This document shows, piece by piece, positions 4,344 to 39,721 of a stretch of DNA of 40,048 nucleotides. The translations under genes and the position numbers were made by a program. The stretch is from NCBI RefSeq assembly GCF_000154985.1, contig NZ_DS572686.1:1-40048 (forward strand). The letters run 5' to 3'. Below the pieces are notes generated by a model that worked only from the letters and a program-made list of their open reading frames with translations, was not told the DNA's origin and ran no database searches. Source of the DNA: Streptococcus infantarius subsp. infantarius ATCC BAA-102 (GTDB lineage Bacteria > Bacillota > Bacilli > Lactobacillales > Streptococcaceae). Positions within the stretch are counted from its first letter, which is position 1, and every line of letters begins with the position of its first letter.

Positions 4344-4961
4344 ATGGGTTGGTGGAAAGAAACCATTGATATTGTAAAGAAAAACGATCCAGCGGCTCGT
4401 AGCTCTCTGGAGATTATACTAACTTATCCTGGTGTCAAAGCATTGGCTGCGCATCGTATCTCACATTTCTTGTGGAAACATGGCTTGAAATTATTAGCGC
4501 GCATGCATAGCCAATTCTGGCGCTTTTGGACACAAATTGAAATTCACCCAGGAGCTGAAATTGCTGAGGGTGTCTTTATCGACCATGGTTCTGGTCTTGT
4601 TATTGGTGAAACAGCAATTGTAGAAAAAGGAGTTATGCTTTATCATGGTGTGACTCTTGGTGGAACGGGTAAGGATGTCGGGAAACGTCACCCAACCGTT
4701 CGCGAAGGAGCACTTGTTTCAGCGCACGCACAGGTTATTGGACCAATTGAAATTGGTAAAAATTCCAAAGTCGGTGCAGCAGCTGTCGTTGTATCGGATG
4801 TTCCAGCAGATGTAACAGTAGTTGGAGTACCAGCGAAAGTTGTTCGTGTTCATGGTAAAAAAGATGAAAATGCCATTCATGATCTCGAAGAACACCGCGA
4901 GTACTATACTTCAAAACTTGAAGCAGCTTTCTACGAAAGTTTACATTCATCAAAACTTTAA
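4344..4961 (+). CDS. cysE: Serine O-acetyltransferase
   Basis: It transfers acetyl from acetyl-CoA to L-serine, the first step of cysteine synthesis. The 205-residue protein has the short N-terminal helical part typical of Gram-positive CysE. A left-handed beta-helix of hexapeptide repeats follows from about residue 68 (IHPGAEIAEGVFIDHGSGLVIGE). The catalytic region DHG and HGVTLGGTGK and the end GVPAKVV are intact. GAAAGGAG precedes the ATG. It lies directly upstream of cysS, linking cysteine supply to cysteinyl-tRNA formation. Confidence 0.96.
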   Translation: MGWWKETIDIVKKNDPAARSSLEIILTYPGVKALAAHRISHFLWKHGLKLLARMHSQFWRFWTQIEIHPGAEIAEGVFIDHGSGLVIGETAIVEKGVMLYHGVTLGGTGKDVGKRHPTVREGALVSAHAQVIGPIEIGKNSKVGAAAVVVSDVPADVTVVGVPAKVVRVHGKKDENAIHDLEEHREYYTSKLEAAFYESLHSSKL

Positions 4962-4993
4962 TTGAAAGATAAAAGGAGATTGGAGGAAGGAAC

Positions 4994-6340
4994 ATGACAA
5001 TTAAGATTTATGATACAATGACCAGAAGTCTTCGTGACTTTGTCCCAATTACTGAAAATACTGTTAACATGTATGTTTGTGGACCGACTGTTTATAACTA
5101 TATTCACATTGGGAATGCTCGAAGTGTTGTTGCTTTTGACACGATTCGCCGCTATTTTGAATACCGTGGCTACAAAGTAAATTATATTTCTAACTTTACT
5201 GACGTCGATGATAAAATCATCAAAGGTGCGGCAGCAGCTGGCATGGACACAAAGGCATTTTCTGATAAATTCATTGCAGCCTTTATGGAAGATGTCAAAG
5301 AACTTGGTGTTGAACCAGCAACAAAAAATCCACGTGTTATTGATTACATGGATGAAATTATTGCTTTTGTCAAAGACCTTGTGGACAAAGGTTTTGCTTA
5401 TGAAGCAAATGGCGATGTGTATTTCCGCGTGGCTAAAAGCAAAAACTATGCTAAATTAGCCAATAAAACTTTGGAAGACCTTGAAGTTGGTGCTAGTGGT
5501 CGTGTTGATGGCGAAGGTGACATCAAAGAAAATCCACTTGATTTTGCACTTTGGAAAGCTGCTAAGCCTGGTGAAGTTTCATGGAAAAGCCCTTGGGGAC
5601 AAGGACGTCCTGGTTGGCACATTGAATGTTCTGTAATGGCGACAAGTATCTTGGGTGATACCATTGATATTCATGGTGGTGGAGCTGATTTGGAATTTCC
5701 ACACCACACTAATGAAATTGCTCAATCAGAAGCCAAAACTGGGAAAACATTTGCTAATTACTGGATGCACAATGGTTTTGTCAATGTTGACAATGAAAAA
5801 ATGTCAAAATCTCTTGGCAACTTTGTGACAGTTCACGATATGTTGAAAACTGTTGATGGTCAAGTACTTCGTTTCTTCCTTGCGACACAACAATATCGCA
5901 AACCTGTCAACTTTACCGAAAAAGCTGTTCACGATGCATCTGTTAACCTTAAGTATTTGAAAAATACCTTTACCTTGCCACTTGGTGAAGCAGTTGATTC
6001 AGCTGAACTTGAAAAATTCAAGGCTGATTTTGAAGCAGCTATGGATGATGATTTCAACACAGCAAATGGTATTACAGTTGTCTTTGACATGGCAAAATGG
6101 ATTAATTCAGGGAATTATGACCAAGTAACCAAAGATACTTTTGCTAAAATACTTGCTGTATTTGGTGTTGTCTTTGAAGAAGAAGTGCTTGATGCGGATA
6201 TCGAAGCATTGGTTGAAAAACGCCAAGAAGCTCGTGCAAATCGTGATTTTGCAACAGCAGATGCTATTCGTGATCAGCTAGCAGCTCAAGGTATCAAATT
6301 GCTTGATACTAAAGATGGTGTGAGGTGGACACGTGACTAA
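4994..6340 (+). CDS. cysS: Cysteinyl-tRNA synthetase
   Basis: This class I aminoacyl-tRNA synthetase is 448 residues, the normal length. It shows C29 and the HIGN signature (residues 38-41) near the N-terminus, HIECS and HHTNE for the zinc site, and KMSKS at residues 269-273. The C-terminal anticodon-binding helices end in WTRD. AGGAGATTGGAGGAAGGAAC before the ATG is a strong ribosome site. Its last 8 bases overlap the start of mrnC, implying coupled translation. Confidence 0.97.
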   Translation: MTIKIYDTMTRSLRDFVPITENTVNMYVCGPTVYNYIHIGNARSVVAFDTIRRYFEYRGYKVNYISNFTDVDDKIIKGAAAAGMDTKAFSDKFIAAFMEDVKELGVEPATKNPRVIDYMDEIIAFVKDLVDKGFAYEANGDVYFRVAKSKNYAKLANKTLEDLEVGASGRVDGEGDIKENPLDFALWKAAKPGEVSWKSPWGQGRPGWHIECSVMATSILGDTIDIHGGGADLEFPHHTNEIAQSEAKTGKTFANYWMHNGFVNVDNEKMSKSLGNFVTVHDMLKTVDGQVLRFFLATQQYRKPVNFTEKAVHDASVNLKYLKNTFTLPLGEAVDSAELEKFKADFEAAMDDDFNTANGITVVFDMAKWINSGNYDQVTKDTFAKILAVFGVVFEEEVLDADIEALVEKRQEARANRDFATADAIRDQLAAQGIKLLDTKDGVRWTRD

Positions 6341-6734
6341 GGTAGATGTCAATCTTATTAATGGTATTGCCCTTGCTTTTGAAGGAGATGCCATTTATTC
6401 GACTTATATTCGTAAACACTTGATTTTTCAAGGTATGACAAAACCTAATCAATTGCACCGCAAAGCAACGATGTATGTTTCAGCCAAAGCTCAAGCAATG
6501 CTGATTAATATGATGTTAGAAGCGCAGCTATTGACGGAAAAAGAAGAAGAAATCTATAAGCGTGGTCGCAATACAAATAGTCATACCAAAGCTAAAAATG
6601 CTGATGTTGTGACTTACCGCATGTCGACAGGTTTTGAAGCTGTCATGGGCTATCTTCACATGACTGAGCAGATTGATCGTCTCGAAGAGATTATTGATTG
6701 GTGTATCCAAGCGGTTGAAAAAATTGAAGATTAA
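6333..6734 (+). CDS. mrnC: Mini-ribonuclease III
   Basis: This 133-residue RNase III catalytic domain lacks a dsRNA-binding domain, as expected for Mini-III, which matures the ends of 23S rRNA. The signature FEGDAIYSTYIR (D19 as metal ligand), HRKATMYVSAKAQ and the helical end with FEAVMGYLHM are present. The start is GTG at 6333 with GAGGTGG upstream; it overlaps cysS by 8 bases, the usual arrangement of these two genes. A terminator follows 17 bases after the stop and ends this transcription unit. Confidence 0.93.
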   Translation: MTKVDVNLINGIALAFEGDAIYSTYIRKHLIFQGMTKPNQLHRKATMYVSAKAQAMLINMMLEAQLLTEKEEEIYKRGRNTNSHTKAKNADVVTYRMSTGFEAVMGYLHMTEQIDRLEEIIDWCIQAVEKIED

Positions 6735-6751
6735 GTAAAAAATAAAAATAG

Positions 6752-6777
6752 CCAGTTCTCGCATGAGAGCTGGTTTT
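6752..6777 (+). terminator. Terminator after mrnC
   Basis: CCAGTTCTC / GAGAGCTGG forms a 9-bp stem with one G-U pair and a GCAT loop, then TTTT. Confidence 0.88.
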
Positions 6778-6779
6778 CA

Positions 6780-6788
6780 TGTTATAAT
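6780..6788 (+). promoter_or_regulatory. Consensus extended -10 (TGTTATAAT) of rlmB
   Basis: The -10 hexamer TATAAT ends only 6 bases before the ATG at 6795, so transcription should begin on or next to the A of the start codon. The mrnC terminator ends 2 bases upstream, leaving no room for a separate -35. Confidence 0.75.
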
Positions 6789-6794
6789 AACACT

Positions 6795-7544
6795 ATGAAG
6801 AACAAAGAATTTAATGATCAAAATGACATCGTTTATGGTGTACATGCAGTAACAGAAGCCCTTCAAGCTAATACAGGAAATAAACTCTACATTCAAGACG
6901 ACTTGCGTGGAAAAAATGTTGATAAAATCAAAATGTTAGCCACAGAGAAAAAAGTTTCTATTTCTTGGACACCTAAAAAAACACTTAGTGACATGACAAA
7001 TGGTGCCGTTCACCAAGGTTTTGTTTTGCGCGTTTCAGAATTTGCTTATGCTGAATTAGATAGCATTTTGGAAAAAGCTGTGCAGGAAGAAAATCCACTG
7101 ATTCTAATTTTGGATGAACTCAATGACCCGCATAATTTTGGCTCAATTTTGCGAACAGCTGACGCAACAAATGTCACTGGTGTGATTATTCCAAAACATC
7201 GTGCGGTTGGTGTGACACCTGTGGTTGCTAAAACATCAACTGGCGCTGTCGAACATGTTCCGATTGCTCGTGTGACAAACCTCAGCCAAACGCTTGATAA
7301 ATTGAAAGAACAAGGTTTCTGGGTATTTGGTACTGATATGAACGGAACACCATCACACAAATGGAATACAGCTGGCAAACTAGCCCTAATCATTGGTAAC
7401 GAAGGAAAAGGCATTTCGCCAAACATCAAAAAACAAGTGGATGAAATGATTACGATTCCGATGAATGGTCACGTTCAAAGTTTGAATGCCAGTGTGGCAG
7501 CTGCAGTATTGATGTATGAAGTTTTCCGTCATAAAGTAGATTAA
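6795..7544 (+). CDS. rlmB: 23S rRNA (guanosine-2'-O-)-methyltransferase RlmB (TrmH/SpoU family)
   Basis: This 249-residue SPOUT methyltransferase modifies G2251-type positions of 23S rRNA with SAM. The N-terminal substrate-binding part begins VYGVHAVTEAL. The trefoil-knot motifs are intact: LDELNDPHNFGSILRTA (motif 1 with the catalytic Arg), IIGNEGKGIS (motif 2) and IPMNGHVQSLNASVAAAV (motif 3). No Shine-Dalgarno sequence lies before the ATG, and the -10 box sits directly upstream, so the message looks leaderless. The start is nevertheless sound because the family homology begins within a few residues of it. Confidence 0.95.
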   Translation: MKNKEFNDQNDIVYGVHAVTEALQANTGNKLYIQDDLRGKNVDKIKMLATEKKVSISWTPKKTLSDMTNGAVHQGFVLRVSEFAYAELDSILEKAVQEENPLILILDELNDPHNFGSILRTADATNVTGVIIPKHRAVGVTPVVAKTSTGAVEHVPIARVTNLSQTLDKLKEQGFWVFGTDMNGTPSHKWNTAGKLALIIGNEGKGISPNIKKQVDEMITIPMNGHVQSLNASVAAAVLMYEVFRHKVD

Positions 7545-7588
7545 TTTTTTTGTAAGACTTGATGAGCCATCTGTGAAAGGACTAAAAA

Positions 7589-8101
7589 ATGAAGAAAAGA
7601 ATCCTCTTAGTTGATGGTTATAACATGATTGCCTTTTGGCAGGAAACACGTCAACTCTTTAAGACAAATCGATTAGACGAAGCACGCAATATTTTACTGC
7701 GTAAGCTCAATAATTATGCCCATTTTGAAAATCTGGATATTATCTGTGTCTTTGATGCTCAGTACGTTCCAGGATTGCGTCAACGTTATGACCAATATAA
7801 AATCCAAGTAATTTTCACCGAAGAAGATGAAACAGCTGATTCTTATATTGAACGTACAGCAGCTGAGCTAAATACACCACGCCATCTTGTGGAAGTTGCA
7901 ACCAGTGATTTAAATGAACAATGGACGGTCTTTTCACAAGGTGCCCTTCGGGTGTCAGCTCGTGAATTGGAGCAGCGCGTAAATACGGTTAAATCAGACT
8001 TGGACAAAATGTCAAAGCACATTGATTTAACCACACCAAAACTCAGTCCGTGGAATGATGGACAGATGGATAAATTAAAAAAATTACTTGATGATATTTA
8101 A
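7589..8101 (+). CDS. NYN/PIN-like endoribonuclease (YacP/Rae1 family)
   Basis: This 170-residue protein belongs to the family of Bacillus subtilis YacP (Rae1), a ribosome-associated endoribonuclease that cuts mRNA in a translation-dependent way. The PIN-like acidic site is visible: LLVDGYNMI at residues 5-13, ICVFDAQYVPG near 50-60, and TEEDETADSYIE near 77-88. AAAGGAC precedes the ATG, 44 bases after rlmB, so the two are probably one operon. The operon is closed by the terminator at about 8126-8149. Confidence 0.9.
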   Translation: MKKRILLVDGYNMIAFWQETRQLFKTNRLDEARNILLRKLNNYAHFENLDIICVFDAQYVPGLRQRYDQYKIQVIFTEEDETADSYIERTAAELNTPRHLVEVATSDLNEQWTVFSQGALRVSARELEQRVNTVKSDLDKMSKHIDLTTPKLSPWNDGQMDKLKKLLDDI

Positions 8102-8125
8102 AACATCAAAGGACTTTTTTAAAGG

Positions 8126-8149
8126 AGCTCGCTAATTGCGAGCTTTTTT
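8126..8149 (+). terminator. Terminator after the YacP-like gene
   Basis: AGCTCGC / GCGAGCT with a TAATT loop is followed by a T run. Confidence 0.92.
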
Positions 8150-8157
8150 GTTATAAT
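8149..8157 (+). promoter_or_regulatory. Consensus extended -10 (TGTTATAAT) for degV
   Basis: TG-T-TATAAT starts at the last T of the preceding terminator. The predicted start is near 8164, giving a leader of about 85 bases before the degV-type gene. Confidence 0.65.
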
Positions 8158-8247
8158 GAAAAAGAAATCATTTGACTATCAAAGTATTTTTGTGACAATG
8201 ATTGATAATACTGAACGTATGATTGTTTTTATAGTAAAGGGAGAATT

Positions 8248-9108
8248 ATGACTTTTAAATTACTAACGGATTCAACAGCAGACTTAGATGAAAATTGGGC
8301 AACTGCTCATGATGTTGAAATCCTAGGACTAACCATTCAATTAGACGGGGAAATCTATGAAACGGTTGGTCCAAATCGTTTGACTAGTGAAAAATTACTA
8401 GAAAGCATGAAAAATGGTGGTAAACCAACGACTAGTCAAGTTAATGTGGGACAATTTGAAGAAAGTTTCCGTCGTCATGCACAAAATGGTGATGCGGTGC
8501 TTTACCTAGCTTTTTCTTCTGTCTTATCAGGAACTTACCAAAGTTCAATGATTGCGCGTGATCTTGTTTTAGAAGAATTTCCAGATGCGACTATCGAAAT
8601 CGTTGATACCTTGGCAGCAGCAGGTGGAGAAGGGTATTTATCTGTCCTAGCAGCTGCAGCGCGTGATGAAGGCAAGACACTCGAAGAAACTAAAGCGATG
8701 ATTATTGATATTTTGCCTCGCTTACGAACATATTTCCTAGTTGATGACCTTTATCATTTGATGCGTGGCGGTCGTTTATCAAAAACATCTGCTATCATGG
8801 GAAGTTTAGCTAATATCAAACCTCTTTTGTGGTTGGATGCCACAGGAAAACTTGTTCCACTAGCAAAAATTCGTGGCCGCAAAAAAGCACTAAAAGAAGT
8901 TGTTTCTCAAGCGACCAAATCTATCGCTCATAGAACAGCTGTTGTTGCCTATGCTAATGATTTAGAAGGTGCTGAAAGCTTAAAAGAATCATTGCTCGAA
9001 CATGACATGATTGATGAGGTTCTTATTATGCCATTAGGTCCAGTTATCTCAGCTCACGTAGGGCCTGGAACGTTAGCTGTCTTTACAATCGGAAAAGACG
9101 CACGATAA
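8248..9108 (+). CDS. DegV family fatty-acid-binding protein
   Basis: This 286-residue two-domain DegV fold protein binds fatty acids; the family includes the FakB subunits of bacterial fatty acid kinase. The N-terminal signature LLTDSTADL, the mid-region [14 protein letters not shown] (fatty-acid carboxylate site) and the C-terminal [14 protein letters not shown] and [17 protein letters not shown]-like ends are all present. AAAGGGAG precedes the ATG. It is monocistronic between a terminator/promoter junction and a following terminator. Delivery of fatty acids to FakA is possible but not shown here. Confidence 0.92.
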
Positions 9109-12132: not shown

Positions 12133-12525
12133 ATGGCACAAGCACAATACACAGGTACTGGTCGTCGTAAAAACGCTGTTGCACGCGTACGTTTGGTCCC
12201 AGGTACTGGTAAAATCACAGTTAACAAAAAAGATGTAGAAGAATACATCCCACATCCTGACCTTCGTCTTGTTATCAACCAACCATTCGCAGTTACTTCA
12301 ACTGTTGGTTCATACGACGTTTTCGTTAACGTTGTAGGTGGTGGTTACGCAGGTCAATCAGGAGCTATCCGTCACGGTATCGCTCGCGCATTGCTTCAAG
12401 TAGACCCAGACTTCCGTGATTCATTGAAACGCGCTGGTCTTCTTACACGTGATGCACGTATGGTTGAACGTAAAAAACCAGGTCTTAAGAAAGCACGTAA
12501 AGCTTCACAATTCTCAAAACGTTAA
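12133..12525 (+). CDS. rpsI: 30S ribosomal protein S9
   Basis: This 130-residue protein begins [16 protein letters not shown] and ends with the basic tail [16 protein letters not shown], whose last residues reach the P-site tRNA in ribosomes. AGAAAGGAG lies before the ATG. The last 51 bases are the target of the inserted elements: insertion kept the coding sequence intact but replaced everything downstream, including the terminator. Confidence 0.98.
12475..12525 (+). repeat. att site at the rpsI 3' end (left junction, attL)
   Basis: These 51 bases recur at 29785-29835 with three differences. Their last 15 bases (TTCTCAAAACGTTAA) recur a third time at 39684-39698. All three are direct repeats and mark integrase exchange sites. 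An inverted core-like site ATCAACGTTT follows at 12539-12548. Confidence 0.85.
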
Positions 12526-12551
12526 TTATCAGCGATATATCAACGTTTCAA

Positions 12552-28062: not shown

Positions 28063-28115
28063 TTGACATCTACAAAGTTTAATGTTAGAATTCATTCAAA
28101 AATAAATTTGAATGA
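28063..28115 (+). promoter_or_regulatory. cad promoter with inverted-repeat operator
   Basis: TTGACA (28063), 17 bases, then TAGAAT (28086) in an extended TGTTAGAAT. TCATTCAAA (28092-28100) and TTTGAATGA (28107-28115) form a perfect 9-bp inverted repeat over the start site, the place and look of an ArsR/CadC-type operator. Confidence 0.85.
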
Positions 28116-28123
28116 GGTGTTTT

Positions 28124-28738
28124 ATGATTCAAAATATTGTTACTTCAATAATCCTGTATTCTGGGACAGCCGTAGACTTACTTATTATCCTAATGTTATT
28201 TTTTGCCAAAAGAAAAAGCAGAAAGGACATCATTAACATATATTTAGGACAATTTCTAGGCTCTGTTAGTCTAATATTCCTAAGTTTGCTTTTTGCATTT
28301 GTCTTAAATTATATTCCTAGTAAAGAGATTTTAGGTTTACTTGGTTTGATTCCAATTTTCCTAGGCCTCAAAGTTTTGCTTTTAGGAGATTCTGATGGAG
28401 AAGCTATTGCAAAAGATGGTTTGCGAAAAGACAATAAAAACCTGATTTTTCTAGTCGCTATGATTACTTTTGCAAGTTGTGGCGCTGACAATATTGGTGT
28501 CTTTGTCCCATATTTTACCACCTTGAATTTAGCGAATATGATAGTGACTTTACTTACTTTTCTAGTCATGATTTATCTCTTGGTTTTTTCTGCCCAAAAA
28601 TTAGCACAAGTCCCTTCTGTTGGAGAAACTTTGGAAAAATATAGCAGATGGTTTATTGCCGTTGTCTATTTAGGATTGGGGATGTATATCCTGATTGAAA
28701 ACAACAGCTTTGACATGCTAAGGACTGTGTTCGGCTAG
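28124..28738 (+). CDS. cadD: CadD-type cadmium resistance transporter
   Basis: This 204-residue membrane protein with five to six helices belongs to the CadD family (LysE-like fold) found on staphylococcal and streptococcal plasmids. Motifs include SGTAVDLLIILMLFF, YLGQFLGS, and ITFASCGADNIGVFVPYF, the conserved family stretch with the Cys. ATG 28124 has GAGGTG upstream; the operator lies just before it. It confers cadmium tolerance, perhaps by export. The adjoining ArsR-type gene makes a complete cad cassette. Confidence 0.93.
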   Translation: MIQNIVTSIILYSGTAVDLLIILMLFFAKRKSRKDIINIYLGQFLGSVSLIFLSLLFAFVLNYIPSKEILGLLGLIPIFLGLKVLLLGDSDGEAIAKDGLRKDNKNLIFLVAMITFASCGADNIGVFVPYFTTLNLANMIVTLLTFLVMIYLLVFSAQKLAQVPSVGETLEKYSRWFIAVVYLGLGMYILIENNSFDMLRTVFG

Positions 28739-28749
28739 GAGAAAAAATT

Positions 28750-29088
28750 ATGAAAAAAGATAGTATCTGCCAAGTGAATATTATAAATCAACAAAATGTT
28801 ACAACCGCAACGAACTACCTTGAAAAGGAAAAAGTCCAAAAATCACTTCGTATTTTATCAAAGTTTACCGATAATAAACAGATAAATATCATCTTTTATC
28901 TCCTTGCTGTTGAAGAACTCTGTGTCTGTGATATAGCCTGTTTACTAAATCTCAGTATGGCATCTGCCTCCCACCATCTTCGTAAACTAGCCAATCAAAA
29001 CATCTTGGATACTAGAAGAGAGGGGAAAGTTATATATTATTTTATAAAAGATGAGGAAATCAAAGATTTTTTTAATCAACTAGGATAA
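28750..29088 (+). CDS. cadX: CadX/CadC ArsR-family metal-sensing repressor
   Basis: This 112-residue winged-helix protein of the ArsR/SmtB family carries ELCVCDIACLLNLSMASASHHLRKL. ELCVCD is the alpha-3 metal site that binds Cd, Pb or Zn, and SHHLRKL is the recognition helix. An N-terminal Cys (C7) may complete the site, as in CadC. The gene lies 11 bases after cadD and probably represses the operon at the inverted repeat before cadD. CadX and CadC cannot be told apart reliably without alignment. Confidence 0.88.
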   Translation: MKKDSICQVNIINQQNVTTATNYLEKEKVQKSLRILSKFTDNKQINIIFYLLAVEELCVCDIACLLNLSMASASHHLRKLANQNILDTRREGKVIYYFIKDEEIKDFFNQLG

Positions 29089-29784: not shown

Positions 29785-29835
29785 AAACCAGGTCTTAAAA
29801 AAGTTCGTAAAGCTTCACAATTCTCAAAACGTTAA
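29785..29835 (+). repeat. Second att site with a copy of the rpsI 3' end (junction of elements A and B)
   Basis: 48 of 51 bases equal 12475-12525. Read in the rpsI frame it gives [16 protein letters not shown] and a stop, that is, the S9 tail with one Ala-to-Val change. An inverted core-like ATCAACGTTT follows at 29851-29860. The 165 bases before it (29620-29784) show no gene. Confidence 0.88.
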
Positions 29836-29873
29836 TCAATTCCTTATTGTATCAACGTTTACAAAGTTTTTTT

Positions 29874-29903: not shown

Positions 29904-30944
29904 TCATAAAGAACTTAACAGATTTAAAGCATCAGCATCTTGCTGGTGCTTTTTTTCTGGCATTAATTCTAGATAATAATTTTGCGTTGTTTGAATATTG
30001 ATATGAGCTAACCGCTTTGATACATATGCAATATCTATATCTTGTGAAAATAAAAATGATGCGTGCGTATCTCTTAAGCCATGGAAAGTTGTTTTTTTAA
30101 TGTTTAATTTCGTTAATAATTCGGCTAATAGTTCTGATTGTTTAAACCCGCTAAAGCCAAAAATATAACCATTCTCTTTAACGGGAATTTTACGAATAAG
30201 CTCATACACTTCTTTATTTATAGAAACATCACGTTTTGCATTTTGTGTTTTTAATGAAGTATCGTCAGAAGTAGGGCTAATCGAATGCCGAACTCTTATT
30301 CCGTATTCAAATAGGCTTTCAGGACGAATAGCTAACAGCTCTCCTCGTCGCATACCAGTTTCTAATGCGAGTAATACAAGTAGGTTATATTCGTCTTCTG
30401 GATGCTTTAAAACGTAATTACGGAGCTTTTTAAAGTCAGTGATAGATAATGCCCTGTTTCGCTTAGGTGGGTTTTCTCCACGTTTTTTTACTAATCGTGC
30501 GAAGTCATTAGCAATATAACCCCGAGCATAAGCATCACGTAAGGATGTTTTTACTTTAAGAAGAACTTCATGTGTTGTTTTTCGTGAATGTGTTTTCGCA
30601 TATTCATCAATTTTCTTTTGAACGACAATATCATTTAAATCTTTTAATTGGATGTCCTGAAATAATTTTCTAATAACCCCTAAAGTGCGAACATAATTTT
30701 GAAAAGTCGTTTCTTTCACGTCATTTACTTTCACAAGATAAATCCAATTTTCGAAGAAGTCCGCAAAGGTTGTTGTTCTGTGGGCAAGTTCTTTACCTTC
30801 TCCTTTCGCTAATTCCATTTCCAATGCCCAAAGTTGTGCTTCTTTCTTTGTTGAAAAAGTTTTCGTAAGCTTTTTATGAGTCCCTTGTTTGTATAAGGAA
30901 ACTTGCGCTCGATATGATTTTCCTCTTTTAATAATACTAGCCAT
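29904..30944 (-). CDS. Tyrosine recombinase/integrase of element B
   Basis: This 346-residue Tn916-class integrase has an AP2-like arm-binding N-terminus (about 1-50, IIKRGKSYRAQVSLY), a core-binding domain (about 57-155) and a catalytic domain. Catalytic residues are R199 in GMRRGE, a Lys near 232-237, H288 and R291 in FHGLRD, H314 in RLAHIN and Y323 or Y324 in QNYYLE. Met at 30944 is chosen over 30962 because AAGGGAA lies before it and family homology begins with MASIIKRG. It differs clearly from the integrase of element A, yet both use the same rpsI target. Its 3' end faces the att core. Confidence 0.95.
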   Translation of the reverse strand: MASIIKRGKSYRAQVSLYKQGTHKKLTKTFSTKKEAQLWALEMELAKGEGKELAHRTTTFADFFENWIYLVKVNDVKETTFQNYVRTLGVIRKLFQDIQLKDLNDIVVQKKIDEYAKTHSRKTTHEVLLKVKTSLRDAYARGYIANDFARLVKKRGENPPKRNRALSITDFKKLRNYVLKHPEDEYNLLVLLALETGMRRGELLAIRPESLFEYGIRVRHSISPTSDDTSLKTQNAKRDVSINKEVYELIRKIPVKENGYIFGFSGFKQSELLAELLTKLNIKKTTFHGLRDTHASFLFSQDIDIAYVSKRLAHINIQTTQNYYLELMPEKKHQQDADALNLLSSL

Positions 30945-31038
30945 GCTATCAATTCCCTTCATAAAAATAGTTGATAGATGCTAGTTGAATACAACTGTAT
31001 TGTATTCCGAACCGAGCACCGTATCAACTGTCAATAAA

Positions 31039-31262: not shown

Positions 31263-32369
31263 TTATTTAAACGGATAACCTTGTTTTGTATATAATGGTG
31301 AATATTTTTTTAACCAAGCTAAAACGTCATCATTAGGCTCATAGTTTTCAAATTCAGTATGAAGAAATGCTAAACACTTCTTGAGCCCTTCATCTCCCCA
31401 AATACGCCAAACTTTGAACAAGTATGAAAACAGACCAGAACCATTTAAAATATGCTTCTGTGATTGTTCTAACAAGTTCATCCGTGGTGAAGGAGAGCTA
31501 AACATAAAACTTCTTTGATGAAGCAAATCAAGCATTTTTTTGGTGTAAGTCGTTAGTCTATTTGATTTAGCATAATAAAATTGATAGCGATCAGTTAAAG
31601 CCGAAACAAGTAAGTCTTTTAGTTCTACATCATTATTTATAGTTTGTAGCTTGTCCGATAAATCATGGGCGTAAGAACCCCTATAGACCGCTTCAAAGCG
31701 TACCCAGTCGTTATAATGGATAGCCTCATCATAACGAATACCCATCGTTTCAATTTGTTCTTTTTTCTTATCATAGACCCTTAAAAAACCTTTAATATTT
31801 TTACCCTTAGAACCTAGATAAAAGGTTGATGTAATATTGTTTTTTGTGATGGCTGACAAAGTTGAATTATTTTTTCTCCCTATAGCCGTTCTAGCGATTT
31901 GATTCTTTTTTGAAAGTTGATTATAAATCGTATTTACATTGACTTTCTCATTGATAAAGTCGATTGCAATATCAATTCTAGATAATCTTGATGTATACAA
32001 TGTACTAGTATTGATGTTCGTCAAAAACTGATGAATCTGTATCGGAGTAGAAAATAATGATTCATATTGCTTTCTATATTCCATCCATGCGTATGCAGAA
32101 AATTTTATACAAACACCCATCTGTATAAAGTCAGCATGATAAGCAATTGCAAAATAGTACGGCGCTTCTTCAAAAATGAAACCGTTCGAATAACCTTGTG
32201 GTAATGAATATGTCGCTTCTTTCAAATTACCTAATACTACTTCTAGCTCTGATAATTCAACAAATTCTTTAATGATGTTAATTGCTGTATCTTCCCAACC
32301 TTCGACAAAAGAAGGTCTCTTTGTTGATTGTAGAACTATTGTAAACTCATCGACTTGAACATCTAACAA
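31263..32369 (-). CDS. MobT-family relaxase (Rep_trans/replication initiation factor domain)
   Basis: This protein of about 368 residues is related to Tn916 Orf20 and ICEBs1 NicK. It nicks oriT and leads the strand into transfer. Family features are SRLSRIDIAIDFINEKVNV, ARTAIGRKNN followed by TFYLGSKGKNIKGFLRVYDKKKE, and WVRFEAVYRGSYAHDLSD. The likely start is TTG at 32369, since AAGGAG lies 8 bases before it but overlaps the alternative GTG at 32378. There is no separate N-terminal HTH domain. It lies downstream of the coupling-protein gene, the same order as in Tn916. Confidence 0.88.
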   Translation of the reverse strand: MLDVQVDEFTIVLQSTKRPSFVEGWEDTAINIIKEFVELSELEVVLGNLKEATYSLPQGYSNGFIFEEAPYYFAIAYHADFIQMGVCIKFSAYAWMEYRKQYESLFSTPIQIHQFLTNINTSTLYTSRLSRIDIAIDFINEKVNVNTIYNQLSKKNQIARTAIGRKNNSTLSAITKNNITSTFYLGSKGKNIKGFLRVYDKKKEQIETMGIRYDEAIHYNDWVRFEAVYRGSYAHDLSDKLQTINNDVELKDLLVSALTDRYQFYYAKSNRLTTYTKKMLDLLHQRSFMFSSPSPRMNLLEQSQKHILNGSGLFSYLFKVWRIWGDEGLKKCLAFLHTEFENYEPNDDVLAWLKKYSPLYTKQGYPFK

Positions 32370-32395
32370 GTGAATCACTCCTTTTTAGTCTAGAA

Positions 32396-32427: not shown

Positions 32428-33780
32428 TTATCTGGTAGAACGGGGGTTTTTACAAAACCCCCGTTTTTTTAAGTGGGTCACAGCTTCTAATATGTCAAAA
32501 CCTAAATAACTAAAGTGACAAATCTTCGGTGTGTTAGCTAAGATTGGGCAAGTAAAGACACCTTGACCCAATGCAAAATTCTTCTCCGATACATCTACTC
32601 CAGTACCAAATGCCGTTGTATAAGTTTGCTTTTCAGCATTACCAAGCACGAACTTTACGGGAAGGTTTTCACGTAAATTAGTTGGTAATAAGGTAGCGTC
32701 CGATTTTTGCATGACAATCCATAAGAAAAATCCTAATTGTCTACCTTGTAAAACAACCTGTGACAGCAGCATCATTACTTCATCACGCTTTTTCTTTTCC
32801 ATTGTCTGTAAAACAGTTTGGAAACTAGCGAATTCATCAAATATAAAAATATAGGGTTCATATTGAAAGTCAGCATATGTTGCTTCTAATTTCGTGTTCA
32901 GTTTATCTTTAATTTCTACTTTTCTAACTTCCATCATTTCATTGAAACTTCGTAGTAGCTTAATAATATCTTCTATACTAGTAGCGGTACTTTCCGATGA
33001 AATTCTTTCGCCAAGAACAGCGAGGCTTGAGTTTTTGGGGTCGGCAAAATAAATATTGTATTGTACATTTTTAGCTAGCATTTGAAGAATTAGCGAGTAG
33101 AGCGCATACGTTTTGCCCGAGCCTGTTTGTCCCACAAGTAAAGTCCCGTATAAAGAAATTGATATAGACTTATCAATAACCAAAGTGTAATCATCTACTT
33201 GGGAAATATGGCTTTTTAGGTCGCAAAGGTCATTAAATTTAAGTTGCTGGTCAATGTTACTATCGTAAATTTCAAAGACATAATAATTTTCATTGTTCGA
33301 TAAATATGCTCGGTTTACAATGAAATTATTTAGCGCAAAAGAGATATTTACATCGCCAATGTCTTTGTTAATATTTATGTTTTCAATGTACGTTGTAGCT
33401 TTTGAAAGGTTGGTGCTAAACTGCAATTTAATTTTAGGTAGGTCTGCTATTTCGGTATTGAAGTAAAATCTTTTGTTGAAGTAATTAGCATCTAGGAACG
33501 CCTTTCTTAGTTTCAGTACGGTAAGATAATGATATATAGCGTGCTTCATGCCTTTATAAGCCTTGTTGCGAATTATCCATATGATTATTTGGAACGAAAA
33601 TATTACTATTAGAAATCCGATAAATAACTTGTTAACGTGTTTTGTAAAAGCAACTCCCAGCTTTAGTTGGGAGTTGATAAAATTCACAAAAAGGACTATC
33701 ACAGTGAGCATAAAGCATGTGCTATATAGGAAAATCCCGTTTTGTTGTCTTTGTGTTCTTAATTTACTTTGTTTGAACAT
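32428..33780 (-). CDS. TcpA/FtsK-SpoIIIE-type coupling ATPase
   Basis: This 450-residue DNA-translocating ATPase brings the relaxase-DNA complex to a type IV channel. Two N-terminal membrane helices (about 17-36 and 52-71) are followed by a linker and the ATPase core, with Walker A GQTGSGKT at 217-224 and Walker B FIFDE (D315, E316). LQGRQLGFFLWIVMQKSDATLLPTNLRENLPVKFVLGN is the FtsK-like sensor region. It overlaps the upstream gene by 17 bases, so the minus-strand genes form an operon. Its length agrees with Tn916 Orf21-like proteins. Confidence 0.92.
   Translation of the reverse strand: MFKQSKLRTQRQQNGIFLYSTCFMLTVIVLFVNFINSQLKLGVAFTKHVNKLFIGFLIVIFSFQIIIWIIRNKAYKGMKHAIYHYLTVLKLRKAFLDANYFNKRFYFNTEIADLPKIKLQFSTNLSKATTYIENININKDIGDVNISFALNNFIVNRAYLSNNENYYVFEIYDSNIDQQLKFNDLCDLKSHISQVDDYTLVIDKSISISLYGTLLVGQTGSGKTYALYSLILQMLAKNVQYNIYFADPKNSSLAVLGERISSESTATSIEDIIKLLRSFNEMMEVRKVEIKDKLNTKLEATYADFQYEPYIFIFDEFASFQTVLQTMEKKKRDEVMMLLSQVVLQGRQLGFFLWIVMQKSDATLLPTNLRENLPVKFVLGNAEKQTYTTAFGTGVDVSEKNFALGQGVFTCPILANTPKICHFSYLGFDILEAVTHLKKRGFCKNPRSTR
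32439..32465 (-). other. Candidate oriT: 12-bp perfect inverted repeat at the tcpA/relaxase boundary
   Basis: AACGGGGGTTTT and AAAACCCCCGTT pair perfectly around TAC. The repeat lies in the last codons of the coupling-protein gene, directly upstream of the relaxase gene. In Tn916, oriT lies between the matching genes (orf21 and orf20), and ICEBs1 oriT is a G/C-run inverted repeat near nicK. On the plus strand it would also look like a terminator, but no plus-strand gene ends here. Confidence 0.6.
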
Positions 33781-34599: not shown

Positions 34600-35325
34600 A
34601 TGCATGACTGGCAAATAAGTGCTATTGAAGAGTTAAAGCAGAGATGGTACACCATAGATGAAGCTATAGAAGAGTTATCCGAAAATGGAAAAGAAATATC
34701 GAGAACAGATTTTTCGAGGCAAATAGATACTGTTGATTTCGATAAGGAAATTGGCTTTTTAGGGAAACCACAATATAAGGAAGAAAAGACCGGCGGTAGA
34801 GGAAGACCTAAAAAACTATATAATCATGCAGCAGTCGAAGCGATTCGGTCATTTGCATTAAGTGATACTTTTAAGAAAGCGGAAGAAGAACCAATTGATT
34901 TCTTTGTAAATAATAAGTGGCGAGATGATATTTCGCTATTTCTGTCTGGTTTTTTAAAAAGCTATCAAAACAAGAATATAGATGAAAATGATATTGATAA
35001 TATTGTCGATGAAACATTAGAAATTGTAGGAAAAGTGATTGTTGAAAAATATTACGGTCTCGCTGGTCAGAATAAGTTTTTGGTGAATCGAAACAAAAAA
35101 TTAGAAGATACCAAATAATATTATATTGCCGTACAACGAGGTGTTGAAGAGCGGGCAAATGAATTGAATCGAATTAGCAGAAATATTACTGATGATATTA
35201 ATTCTCATTCTAAACAATTGGTAAGTAAAGAAGTTTATCATTTAAAACAAACTGTACAGGTAAATGAAAAATTAGATAGAATTTTAAAATTGTTGGAGGA
35301 ATCTCATAGTGAAAATGAAGATTAA
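34600..35325 (+). pseudogene. Regulator-like cargo gene interrupted by an in-frame TAA
   Basis: From ATG 34600 (GAGGTGG upstream) the frame codes for 172 residues: an N-terminal helical region (WYTIDEAIEELSENGKEISR), a basic glycine-rich stretch KTGGRGRPKKLYNHAAVEAI (AT-hook-like, about 68-75), and an acidic helical part. It stops at TAA 35116-35118. The same frame then continues without a gap for 68 codons to TAA 35323-35325, as a coiled-coil-like segment (RGVEERANELNRISRNI, LDRILKLLEESHSENED). The ORF is therefore probably a 241-residue gene with one nonsense change, or a gene whose tail is read only by readthrough. The shortened product may still bind DNA. No family is recognised. Confidence 0.65.
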
Positions 35326-35534
35326 CGAAAAAATACGCGAGGTTCTCGAGCAATTTGATGACCGATACTAGCTTGAAGGTCAGTTGAATAAAAAGGAATT
35401 GCTTCAAGACTTGTACAGCTACAATGAGGATTTATTGGAAGTAATAATTGCGAATGATTTGTTGAAAAATTGGGTTCACCGTTCAGATTACAAAAATAAC
35501 AGTCGTGCGATTGAGTAACCTAATTAAAGAGTAA
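35309..35534 (+). pseudogene. N-terminal remnant of a type III DNA methyltransferase (mod)
   Basis: From GTG 35309 (GGAGGA 8 bases upstream) the frame reads INEKIREVLEQFDDRY, stops at TAG 35369-35371, and continues LEGQLNKKELLQDLYSYNED followed by LLEVIIANDLLKNW. Removing one G from GGG 35472-35474 then gives FTVQITKITVVRLSNLIKE and a stop at 35532. The pattern matches the start of Mod subunits of type III restriction-modification systems as I know them. The remaining roughly 570 residues, including the catalytic DPPY domain, are absent. The gene therefore has three lesions: nonsense, frameshift and a large deletion. The following 35535-35624 holds only leader DNA of the helicase gene. Confidence 0.62.
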
Positions 35535-35624: not shown

Positions 35625-38600
35625 TTGGGAAAGTATAAAAATATAATTTCGACAATCGGACGCGATAACAAATTAAGTCGATGTGTGGATGCTGAAGGAA
35701 AAATCTTCAACCGAGAACAAATTGTTAATAGTTGGAAAGAGTCATATTATGAAAGGGTTTCTCGAAATGAAGATGAGATTGGCTTACGCTTGCCTCAATT
35801 TGGAGCATTATCTGCAATTCGTGCACATTGGGCAACATCAAATTCTCCAGCAACCATTGTCTTACCTACTGGAACAGGCAAGTCTGAAACAATGTATACC
35901 ACAATTATTTCTGAGAGAATTACTTCAACGCTTATCATTGTACCGTCTAATCTATTGAGGGAACAAATTTTTGAGGGAGCGAGGTATTTTGGTATACTTC
36001 CAAAATTAAAAATGACATCAGATGAAATTATTTATCCAACGACTTTTCTTTATAAGTCAAAAGTAAAAGAAGAGGATGAAAGTATTCTGATTGATGCCCT
36101 TGAGGAGGCTAATATAATTGTTTCAACTCCAGGGATGATTAAAAATATGACCTCTTCAGTTTGGGATAAACTTCTTGAAAAAGTGGAGGTTGTAATATTC
36201 GACGAAGCGCATCATCTTGCTGCTCCCGATTGGGGAACAGTGAGAGAAAGATTTATAGGGAAAAAAATTCTACAATTTACTGCAACTCCATTTAGAAATG
36301 ATGGGAAAAAAATTGATGGTAAGATAATTTTTAATTATGGGTTGGCATTGGCACAAAAAGCCGGGTACTTCAAACCTATCGATTTTTATCCAATTCAAGA
36401 ATTTGATGAGCGAAAGTCTGACAATGAAATTGCGAAAATTGCCATCAAACAATTAGATGATGATTTGAAGAAAGGATATGAGCACGTACTTTTAGCGAGA
36501 GCAAATAGCCGAAAACGAGCTGATGAATTGTATGAAAAAATTTACTCTCAATATAAAAAGTATAATCCAGTTGTTATTCATACTGGTATTCGCCCTACCC
36601 AAAGAAAAGAAAACTTGCAGCAAGTTAAAAGTGGGAAAGCAAAAATTGTGGTTTGTGTAGACATGTTTGGTGAAGGTATTGATATTCCAACACTGAAAAT
36701 TGCAGCAATTCATGATAAATATAGGTCGCTTCCGATTACACTTCAATTCATTGGACGATTCGCTCGAACAAGTGGCAATAAGTTGGGAAATGCAAAGCTA
36801 ATTACGAATGTGGCAATGGACGATTTGAAGGAAGCGATTGAAGAGTTATATCATCAAAATTCTGATTGGAATCAACTTCTTAATATCCATTCAAATCAAG
36901 CTATCAATAAAGAAGTTGAACTTAGTGAATTCATTGGCAAGTTTGAAAAAGGTCATGCGAAGGAGATAGATTTATCTCAACTAAAGATGAAAATAAGTAC
37001 TAGAATGTTTCGGTCTTCTTCAAAAAAAGCTTTCATAAATGGATGGAAAGAGGTTTTGGATCAAGATAAAACTATACCATTCATAAATGAAGAAGATTCC
37101 GTTTATATTTTTATTGAGGAAATTGAAACAAATGTAGTCTGGTCAGATCAAAAGGATATAGTGCAATACGATTATGATTTTTTTGTGTTATTTTTTGATA
37201 AAGATAATGGAATCATTCATATAAACGAAACTGATACTGGAAAGGGAAACCGACTTGTGGATAGTATTTTTCCAGAAGCATCAGCAATTAAGGGAGATTC
37301 GATATATCGAAGTTTAGATGGAATTAATCGATTAATGATTGGAACGTTGGGATTAAAGCAAAAACCTAGCGGAAGGATTAGCTTTAGAATGTTTGCTGGT
37401 ACTGATATTAAGTCTGGAATTAGTGAGGCTGTTGTATCTGGTTCGACTAAATCTAATTTATTCGGTTATGGCTATCAAGGTGGAGGACGTATTAGTATTG
37501 GTTGTTCGTATAAAGGGAAAGTTTGGATGCGTTGGGTAGAACGGATAAACTTTTGGACGGAATGGTGTCAGAACATTGGAAAAAAAGTATTAGACGAAAC
37601 TATTGATACGAATAATATATTAGATAATTCGCTCGCCTTAGAAATTATTAAGGAATTCCCAGAAGGTGTTCCTTATAAAATATTGTTACCAGAAATAATT
37701 GAAATCACCAATTCTTCAACGAAGCAGTTGTATATTTCTAAAGAACAAAAGGCATTTCCATTCTTTCAAACGGATTTAAAGAATCCCGTTTTATTTAATG
37801 GAAATCTTCGTTTTGAATTTTGGATAAATGAACGAAAATTTGTCTTCGAGCAGATTATTAATGAGACATCATATGGTTTCAAGCAAATCGAAGGTGAAGA
37901 GCTAATAGTGAAGACAGGTAATAAATCTGTTAAGATGACTGACTATCTGTACGAATATTCACCGGAAGTATCGTTTATACAAAGTGATGGAACTATTATT
38001 GTAGTTCAAGAAAATTTAAAAACAGTTATCAAACCAAAAAGTAGCATCGATTTGCCGGCAGAATCCCTTTTTGCCATCGATTGGAATGGACTTGGAGTCA
38101 ATATTAAATCTGAATCTCAAGGAAAAGAAAGAAAGGCTGATTCAATTCAATACGCTACGATACATAATATTGTAGATCAGACATCAGATATTATTTTTGA
38201 CGATGATGGATCGGGAGAAATAGCGGATGTTGTTTCAATCAAAATTAATGAGGAACATCGAAAAGTCGTATTTCATCTGTATCATTGTAAATACTCACAT
38301 GGAGAAAATCCTGGTGCTCGTGTTTCTGACCTATATGAAGTATGTGGTCAAGCTGAAAAATCAATTATGTGGAATGATAATGTCTTAGAAATTGTTCAAC
38401 GAATGATTGTACGAGAAAATATGAGAAAGAAAAACTATGATGAAACTAGATTTGAGAAGGGGGACTTACAAACCCTGTATATGTTAAAGAAGATGATAAA
38501 GTCTGGTTTTGAAACAGAATTTGAAATATCAATTGTTCAGCCAGGAGTCTCGATATTAGAAATCACAGATTCAATGAAGCAAATTATTCTGGCAACGGAT

Positions 38601-38654
38601 ACTTATTTAAAAGAGACTTATGGCTTACGTCTAACATGTTATTTTAGTAATTAG
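35625..38654 (+). CDS. SF2 DEAH-box helicase with large uncharacterised C-terminal region and possible nuclease motif
   Basis: The 1009-residue protein starts at TTG 35625 with GAAGGGA upstream. Helicase motifs are complete: Walker A LPTGTGKS (80-87), Ia LIIVPSNLLREQI, DEAH at 193-196, FTATPF (218-223), motif V FGEGIDIPT and motif VI QFIGRFART (374-382). The part after about residue 450 is not assigned. Near the end, GEIADVVSIKI (D868) and FHLYHCKYS (K889) have the spacing and shape of a PD-(D/E)xK nuclease core, with His instead of the usual Glu. GARVSDLYEVCGQAEKS follows. It differs from type III Res, whose ATP motif is MATGTGKT-like. In an IME cargo slot next to a dead mod gene it is probably a defence protein. 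This is inference. Confidence 0.8.
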   Translation: MGKYKNIISTIGRDNKLSRCVDAEGKIFNREQIVNSWKESYYERVSRNEDEIGLRLPQFGALSAIRAHWATSNSPATIVLPTGTGKSETMYTTIISERITSTLIIVPSNLLREQIFEGARYFGILPKLKMTSDEIIYPTTFLYKSKVKEEDESILIDALEEANIIVSTPGMIKNMTSSVWDKLLEKVEVVIFDEAHHLAAPDWGTVRERFIGKKILQFTATPFRNDGKKIDGKIIFNYGLALAQKAGYFKPIDFYPIQEFDERKSDNEIAKIAIKQLDDDLKKGYEHVLLARANSRKRADELYEKIYSQYKKYNPVVIHTGIRPTQRKENLQQVKSGKAKIVVCVDMFGEGIDIPTLKIAAIHDKYRSLPITLQFIGRFARTSGNKLGNAKLITNVAMDDLKEAIEELYHQNSDWNQLLNIHSNQAINKEVELSEFIGKFEKGHAKEIDLSQLKMKISTRMFRSSSKKAFINGWKEVLDQDKTIPFINEEDSVYIFIEEIETNVVWSDQKDIVQYDYDFFVLFFDKDNGIIHINETDTGKGNRLVDSIFPEASAIKGDSIYRSLDGINRLMIGTLGLKQKPSGRISFRMFAGTDIKSGISEAVVSGSTKSNLFGYGYQGGGRISIGCSYKGKVWMRWVERINFWTEWCQNIGKKVLDETIDTNNILDNSLALEIIKEFPEGVPYKILLPEIIEITNSSTKQLYISKEQKAFPFFQTDLKNPVLFNGNLRFEFWINERKFVFEQIINETSYGFKQIEGEELIVKTGNKSVKMTDYLYEYSPEVSFIQSDGTIIVVQENLKTVIKPKSSIDLPAESLFAIDWNGLGVNIKSESQGKERKADSIQYATIHNIVDQTSDIIFDDDGSGEIADVVSIKINEEHRKVVFHLYHCKYSHGENPGARVSDLYEVCGQAEKSIMWNDNVLEIVQRMIVRENMRKKNYDETRFEKGDLQTLYMLKKMIKSGFETEFEISIVQPGVSILEITDSMKQIILATDTYLKETYGLRLTCYFSN

Positions 38655-38895
38655 ATAGAATGGTTGTTTGTATTACTGTGTTAGAAAGCACTCGCATATC
38701 TGGTAAGCTCTGAAGCTAAAGGATGCAAAGGTGCCGAGCTAATCAAGATGTATGTGTATTTCTAAAATCAATGACATTAAAATAGTACGCTAATCAATAT
38801 ATGAATGAAGACCTCAAACATTATTTGAATTCTATGTAGCTTATACACAATTAATACTTATCGATCAAAAAAAGAATAAATAAGAGGAGGGTAAT
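38655..38895. other. Gap between the helicase and the small Cys-containing protein gene
   Basis: No gene is visible in this interval. It is AT-rich with no strong hairpin, and probably carries the promoter of the gene at 38896, for which I see only weak candidates. Confidence 0.4.
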
Positions 38896-39456
38896 ATGAG
38901 TTCAATTTATGTAAAAAATTTAATTAACACAGTCATTGAAAAATCGGTAAATAAATCATGGAATACTGCTGTATTAGAATGGGAAATTGATGATGTTATT
39001 GAAGATGAAAACCATGAATCTTCTTGTATATGTGGCAAAGAAAATATTAGATATTTATTTACAATTAAGAATATCAATAATCAAAACACGTTATTCCCTA
39101 TTGGAAGTTCTTGCATTAAGAAATTTGAGCGTGAAGATTTAAATGAACTTACATTAGTTAACGAAAAATTGTTTAAATTATTTCATGCTGTTAAAGCAAA
39201 TGCATTTATCACATTGGATTCTAAATACTTCTCAAGAAAATTATTAAAGTATATGTTTGACCAAGGTGCATTCCCCCCTAATCAGTACAATAAATATAAT
39301 GGAGATAAAGATTACGAATTTATGCTAAAAATGTTTAATATGAGAGGCGAGCCATCTGAAAATCAGTTAAAAAAAATAAGAGCTATCATTTTGAATTCTA
39401 TAAAACCATATCTCATACAATTACTTAATGATAAGGTTGCGAAAAAAAGCTTTTAG
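38896..39456 (+). CDS. Small Cys-containing protein of unknown function
   Basis: This 186-residue soluble protein has AAGAGGAGGG before the ATG. The one clear motif is CICGKENIRYLFTIKNI followed by IGSSCIKKF, with C44, C46 and C73 and a nearby His (H40). This is a likely metal knuckle like those in small phage and mobile-element proteins, where C-x-CG and IGS-x-C are paired. The C-terminal half is helical and Lys-rich and may bind nucleic acid. It is the last gene before the right att site and may work with the helicase, though 241 bases separate them. Confidence 0.62.
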   Translation: MSSIYVKNLINTVIEKSVNKSWNTAVLEWEIDDVIEDENHESSCICGKENIRYLFTIKNINNQNTLFPIGSSCIKKFEREDLNELTLVNEKLFKLFHAVKANAFITLDSKYFSRKLLKYMFDQGAFPPNQYNKYNGDKDYEFMLKMFNMRGEPSENQLKKIRAIILNSIKPYLIQLLNDKVAKKSF

Positions 39457-39683: not shown

Positions 39684-39698
39684 TTCTCAAAACGTTAA
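39684..39698 (+). repeat. Right att core of element B (attR)
   Basis: TTCTCAAAACGTTAA equals the last 15 bases of rpsI. Upstream similarity to rpsI is lost, so this is the displaced chromosomal core; host DNA resumes to its right. Confidence 0.85.
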
Positions 39699-39721
39699 TT
39701 CGTTTTACAGATTTGTACAGA

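Follow-up and report, generated by a model that had tools for sequence, protein, structure and literature searches.

An SF2 helicase with predicted RdgC/RexA-type and PD-(D/E)xK nuclease domains, borne on an integrative element of Streptococcus infantarius, as a candidate anti-phage effector

Results

In this study, we analysed a stretch of 40,048 nucleotides (the window) of Streptococcus infantarius subsp. infantarius ATCC BAA-102 (contig NZ_DS572686.1), in which the integrative element B carries a gene for a helicase of 1009 amino acids (35625..38654, forward strand). The open reading frame is intact, and its TTG start is preceded by AAGAAGGGA. On the same strand, the gene encodes a superfamily 2 (SF2) helicase core (35778..36770; residues 52-382), a domain of predicted RdgC/RexA/Iml3-type fold that may form a DNA clamp (36981..37607; residues ~453-661), a beta-rich region to which no family was assigned (37635..38039; residues 671-805) and a predicted PD-(D/E)xK-like nuclease domain (38076..38651; residues 818-1009). 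Homologue stretches fetched for comparison are labelled L001, L012 and so on. Near-identical proteins occur in an Aerococcus genome (L012, 98%) and in Rummeliibacillus (L013, 94%), and the DNA of both stretches is 91.8-98.3% identical to the window, the neighbouring genes of the element included. For the whole gene, the ratio of non-synonymous to synonymous substitution rates (dN/dS) was 0.11-0.19 in comparisons with five relatives; a sixth (L023), which gave 0.09, is nearly saturated and was set aside. In the nuclease part, the same five comparisons yielded 0.11-0.39, with the 98%-identical copy at the upper end, and each of four protein parts gave 0.10-0.17 against three mid-distance relatives. 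Purifying selection acts in every domain of the protein.

A first interpretation of this gene, the sequence-only reading, had proposed complete helicase motifs in the N-terminal part, and these were borne out by Pfam matches above the cut-offs (ResIII, residues 52-224; DEAD, 74-224; Helicase_C, 282-382). SF2 motifs I, II, III, V and VI are present (PTGTGK, residues 81-86; DEAHH, 193-197; TATP, 219-222; EG.D, 350-353; Q..GRF.R, 374-381), and their residues are invariant across the 66 rows of the full-length alignment except for P81 and A195, which deviate in one row each. Residues 1-430 form an SF2 helicase, for which the fold list was led by Hef, RadD and XPB, tied with other SF2 helicases. 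The nearest curated helicase models are mREase_IV and PbeA of PADLOC and the Dnd restriction enzyme and UvrB of NCBIfam, but the likeness is confined to the helicase and lies far under the NCBIfam cut-offs. The question had been raised whether the protein belongs to a characterised system; among the PADLOC (17/17) and NCBIfam (25/27) matches listed, none extends beyond residue 465.

About 550 residues had been left without assignment behind the helicase. This was confirmed, as Pfam gave no match even at E<=10 for residues 438-797 and 798-1009, and the C-terminal profile found nothing better than E 0.26 among PDB sequences. In the fold search with the whole protein, helicases took up the list, and nothing was learned about the C-terminus. 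AlphaFold2 monomer models were predicted from two alignments, one with 66 full-length and the other with 70 C-terminal rows. The whole-protein model reached a predicted local distance difference test score (pLDDT) of 83.1 and a predicted template modelling score (pTM) of 0.63, and the model of residues 438-1009 a pLDDT of 89.4 and a pTM of 0.83. The resulting fold list was topped by RdgC and Iml3; for the C-terminus, it gave FokI and EndoMS.

In the predicted nuclease domain, D868 (38226..38228, forward strand) is the putative metal ligand, and H887-C888-K889 (38283..38291, forward strand) takes the (E/Q)xK position. D868 and K889, with His in the usual acidic position, had already been suspected to form a PD-(D/E)xK core. 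D868, H887 and K889 are invariant in 66/66 full-length rows, in 70/70 C-terminal rows and in 11/11 rows of a partly different set (C888 is found in 61/66 full-length rows). Because the three residues are invariant in all three row sets, their conservation is not due to chance. In both AlphaFold2 models, which contain the same elements, D868 starts strand 2 and H887 and K889 end strand 3, so that they face each other across one hairpin, in the residue placement of a PD-(D/E)xK core. In the best hhalign register, D868 and H887-x-K889 fall on the Asp and QxK columns of Mrr. The models thus support the proposed C-terminal nuclease, with D868, H887 and K889 as the predicted catalytic residues and His where Mrr-type enzymes have Gln. 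This core is common to Mrr_cat, FokI and EndoMS; in contrast to these, the predicted domain has no significant profile match, carries His for Gln/Glu and is fused to a helicase. For Mrr_cat (PF04471), Pfam gave no match at E<=10 in residues 798-1009, and the hhalign score was reached by 3/150 shuffles. A NucS search gave matches in 10/150 genomes, six of these ten being shorter than 80 positions.

The sequence-only reading had overlooked the middle domain. Alignment with 30 RdgC proteins by hhalign gave a score of 28.5, which none of 150 shuffles reached (shuffled maximum 22.1). Together with the model, this points to an RdgC-type fold of residues ~453-661.

Relatives of the protein are widespread. 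Among 84,980 species genomes scanned, 441 loci encoding a relative were found; the best 80 were kept for analysis and include members of Bacillota, Pseudomonadota, Bacteroidota, Chloroflexota, Gemmatimonadota, Armatimonadota and other phyla. Searching with the C-terminal 580 residues gave matches in 102 plasmid records, 50 of which cover at least 80% of the query. Six viral contigs carry a relative when searched with the alignment, whereas the single-protein query found none. Two records labelled as phage were not counted as such; the one viewed (L005, Acinetobacter phage MD-2021a) has the gene among phenylacetate degradation genes instead of defence genes and is probably a bacterial contig. 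Within single groups the family is sporadic, patchy and mobile. A relative is present in 2/76 genomes of the family of the Aerococcus genome, one being that genome, and the E. coli version in 15/5426 genomes, 14 of which match at least 80% of the gene. A quick tree of 86 rows placed the window with Aerococcaceae and Caryophanaceae rows and, at the next level, with other Bacilli and a plasmid record; this grouping with other families speaks for transfer. A housekeeping repair helicase picked up by an element would be in line with the likeness of the helicase core to RadD, XPB and Hef; however, the sporadic distribution and the position of the window among rows of other families disfavour this explanation and make it extremely improbable. 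No description of the family was found in the open-licence papers covered, and the main text of PMC12839542 does not name RdgC, UvrD or AddB.

In L001 (CP079755.1, Klebsiella grimontii plasmid pNY3A), a 20-kb stretch of 32% GC holds a copy of this Bacillota-type gene that is 88% identical in the C-terminal part, and the record may be a wrongly assigned Gram-positive plasmid. In L002 (a Streptococcus dysgalactiae plasmid record), the relative is split over several frames, and a DNA invertase and a type I specificity gene lie close by.

Plasmids, integrative elements and tRNA islands adjoining restriction-modification (R-M), Azaca or AbiH genes account for many of the homologue loci viewed, so that the location beside defence genes proposed earlier held for these, but not for at least one other, L005 with its phenylacetate genes. 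ZacA, ZacB and ZacC clusters were found in 7, 8 and 7 loci, respectively, and all three in five loci; the assignment rests on one tested member per cluster (E 9e-89, 2e-112 and 2e-266). An AbiH neighbour was found in one Rhizobium locus. Within 3 kb of the gene in L012-L047, 135 genes (135/262 near genes of all non-operon loci) match 314 PADLOC families at E<=1e-8, among them GajA, type IV and type II enzymes and SoFic. In comparison, 135 genes (135/164) of 20 random Firmicutes regions, taken from genomes other than those of the loci, match 84 families. Because the models counted overlap and the control regions are not genome-matched, this excess is suggestive only.

The E. coli version was viewed in 6 of its 15 loci. 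Type I R-M genes or remnants lie upstream in 6/6, and a tRNA-Leu or tRNA-Phe gene together with an integrase lies downstream in 5/6, the sixth being without a tRNA in the stretch shown. In 3/6 loci, the start of the gene lies 6-12 bp behind hsdS; the gene is also downstream of type I genes in Vibrio, and a type I S gene is present in L002. These positions would fit an additional, fourth subunit in R-M systems of a type I-like kind. Against this, no type I gene is listed in 9/11 plasmid and phage-collection loci viewed (the tables being incomplete), and in 3/6 E. coli loci the gene is whole while hsdR and hsdM are both broken. A type I subunit is thus very unlikely. In L195 the helicase itself is split. 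A 421-residue protein follows the E. coli helicase at 15435-16700 in L191, L192 and L193; it has no Pfam match (two members scanned) and is a possible local partner.

The position directly after hsdS in half of these loci is also consistent with a modification-dependent (type IV) restriction enzyme, whose helicase would translocate and whose nuclease would cut once the middle domain or the beta-rich region reads a modified base. PADLOC type IV models match the helicase at E 1.4e-10 and 4/135 of the near genes. However, the matches to the protein cover the helicase only, Pfam finds no modified-base reader domain (region 671-805 still being without a family), and the middle domain resembles a non-specific DNA clamp. 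We consider this explanation unlikely.

The sequence-only reading had also missed an operon-like arrangement with AddAB-like genes. In 15 loci the directly upstream gene is UvrD-like (AddA-like), in 13 of them it is preceded by an AddB-like gene, and in 10 of the 15 a gene of a WYL-containing cluster lies nearby. A scan of a single member per cluster showed PDDEXK_1 in the AddB-like member, and UvrD domains and PDDEXK_1 in the UvrD-like member (L084). All 15 loci fall in one alphaproteobacterial clade of 18 rows (support 100), whose other three rows have a cut UvrD gene (two) or are cut by a contig end (one). In ten non-operon loci examined by tblastn, no AddAB-like genes were found. The Asaia locus L084 is unusual: its UvrD-like protein (4845-8372) has an ArdC N-terminal domain in place of the UvrD start, and the AddB-like gene is absent upstream.

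The AddAB-like operon of one clade, the integrases common among the neighbours, the role of RdgC as a recombination protein and the occurrence on integrative elements, plasmids and some viral contigs would agree with a DNA-processing enzyme that serves mobile elements in recombination, replication or exclusion of rivals instead of protecting against phages. On the other hand, the gene occurs on elements with different backbones, it is whole in 4/6 E. coli loci with partly broken adjoining R-M genes, and all three Azaca clusters accompany it in the five loci mentioned above. An element-serving enzyme therefore appears fairly unlikely.

In the window, element B spans ~9.9 kb. It encodes a tyrosine integrase (29904..30962; Pfam Phage_integrase), a Rep_trans replication-initiation protein (31263..32378; PF02486) and an FtsK/SpoIIIE-like ATPase (32428..33780; PF01580), all three on the reverse strand. 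The edge repeats proposed for the element are real. The left repeat (29806..29836) duplicates the end of the gene that follows rplM, the right repeat (39684..39700) has 17 bases, and a third copy (12496-12526) coincides with the end of the open reading frame 12133-12525, which by gene order after rplM (Pfam L13 in L012) we infer to be rpsI. From these repeats, two elements seem to follow the rplM-rpsI-like genes in tandem, separated by a hybrid repeat. At the end of element A (28112-29088), a 208-residue membrane-like protein is followed by a 112-residue ArsR-like regulator, a pair that presumably resembles cadD/cadC of cadmium resistance.

Broken coding debris lies between the element genes and the cargo (35119..35520, forward strand). 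It had been taken for a ruined type III mod gene, an identity that stays unconfirmed: a Pfam scan of two debris pieces gave no methylase, nor was one found among the element open reading frames scanned, which speaks against membership in a type I or III R-M system. Among the fetched loci, a 48-residue debris piece matches only L012, L013 and L128, the last of which is the same genome as L012, and the piece has no plasmid match. The gene is followed by a Cys-containing protein of 186 residues (38896..39456, forward strand), suggested earlier as a partner. Among 97 loci it is found only in L012 (99%) and, as a 59-residue stretch, in L013. Its relatives occur in eight plasmid records, and 3/3 inspected have no helicase relative within ~6 kb. 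On this rare co-occurrence and the helicase-free plasmid relatives the partner was rejected, and the protein is regarded as an independent passenger.

Discussion

Taken together, the gene probably encodes a single-protein, mobile anti-phage (or anti-plasmid) effector, in which an SF2 translocase, a predicted RdgC/RexA-type clamp and a predicted PD-(D/E)xK nuclease are combined. The defence role, the trigger and DNA as substrate are what we infer from this domain make-up and from the neighbourhoods. Potentially, the clamp would load on free ends, gaps or recombination or replication intermediates from an invading genome, and the ATP-driven helicase would pull the DNA through the protein. The nuclease would then cut the DNA, and either the invader would be destroyed or the cell killed in an abortive response, as reported for Hna (PMC13381803). 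Self DNA might be spared by a trigger in the form of a phage protein, a DNA structure or a modification.

RdgC makes DNA-encircling rings, and its fold is shared by RexA, one member of a phage-exclusion pair (PMC11077077). This fold has so far been described for proteins of recombination control, kinetochores and lambda exclusion. It is tempting to speculate, as a tentative and more specific proposal, that the proteins form an undescribed immune family whose RdgC/RexA-type clamp senses phage recombination or replication intermediates, and which in Alphaproteobacteria is part of a machine with an AddAB-like end-resecting pair. The study adds an unnamed, widespread helicase-nuclease family (441 genome loci) to the candidates for bacterial immunity and offers a clear active site and a clamp as targets for mutation. 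If the proposal holds, it would connect a DNA-destroying effector with the RdgC/RexA fold, whose part in phage exclusion is not yet understood, and it hints that AddAB-like repair machines were drawn into defence.

Several known systems are similar in parts. The predicted fold of residues ~453-661 is like that of RdgC, lambda RexA and Iml3-Chl4 (PMC11077077). Unlike RdgC, the protein has no profile match to RdgC (PF04381) above the cut-off, and its domain of ~200 residues lies between a helicase and a nuclease. The AddAB-type helicase-nuclease pair is an operon neighbour in one alphaproteobacterial clade but is not adjacent in the window. Hna of Sinorhizobium meliloti is a single-effector helicase-nuclease for abortive infection defence; it is reported to be a 3'-5' single-stranded DNA exonuclease that is inactive with ATP and released by the phage single-stranded DNA-binding protein (PMC13381803). 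It has 845 residues, a DinG/XPD-like helicase and the nuclease residues P712, D713, E727 and K729 (D-x13-E-x-K). The protein described here has 1009 residues, the spacing D868-x18-H887-x-K889, and a predicted RdgC-like domain and a beta-rich region between helicase and nuclease. Its nearest helicase folds are Hef, RadD and XPB (NCBIfam DinG E 0.071 vs 1e-11 for the UvrB and Dnd models). Membership in Hna, compared by its published description, was rejected on length, nuclease spacing and domain make-up. Like Hna as described there, it is a single protein with an N-terminal SF2 helicase and a predicted C-terminal PD-(D/E)xK nuclease, and it is sporadic and widespread.

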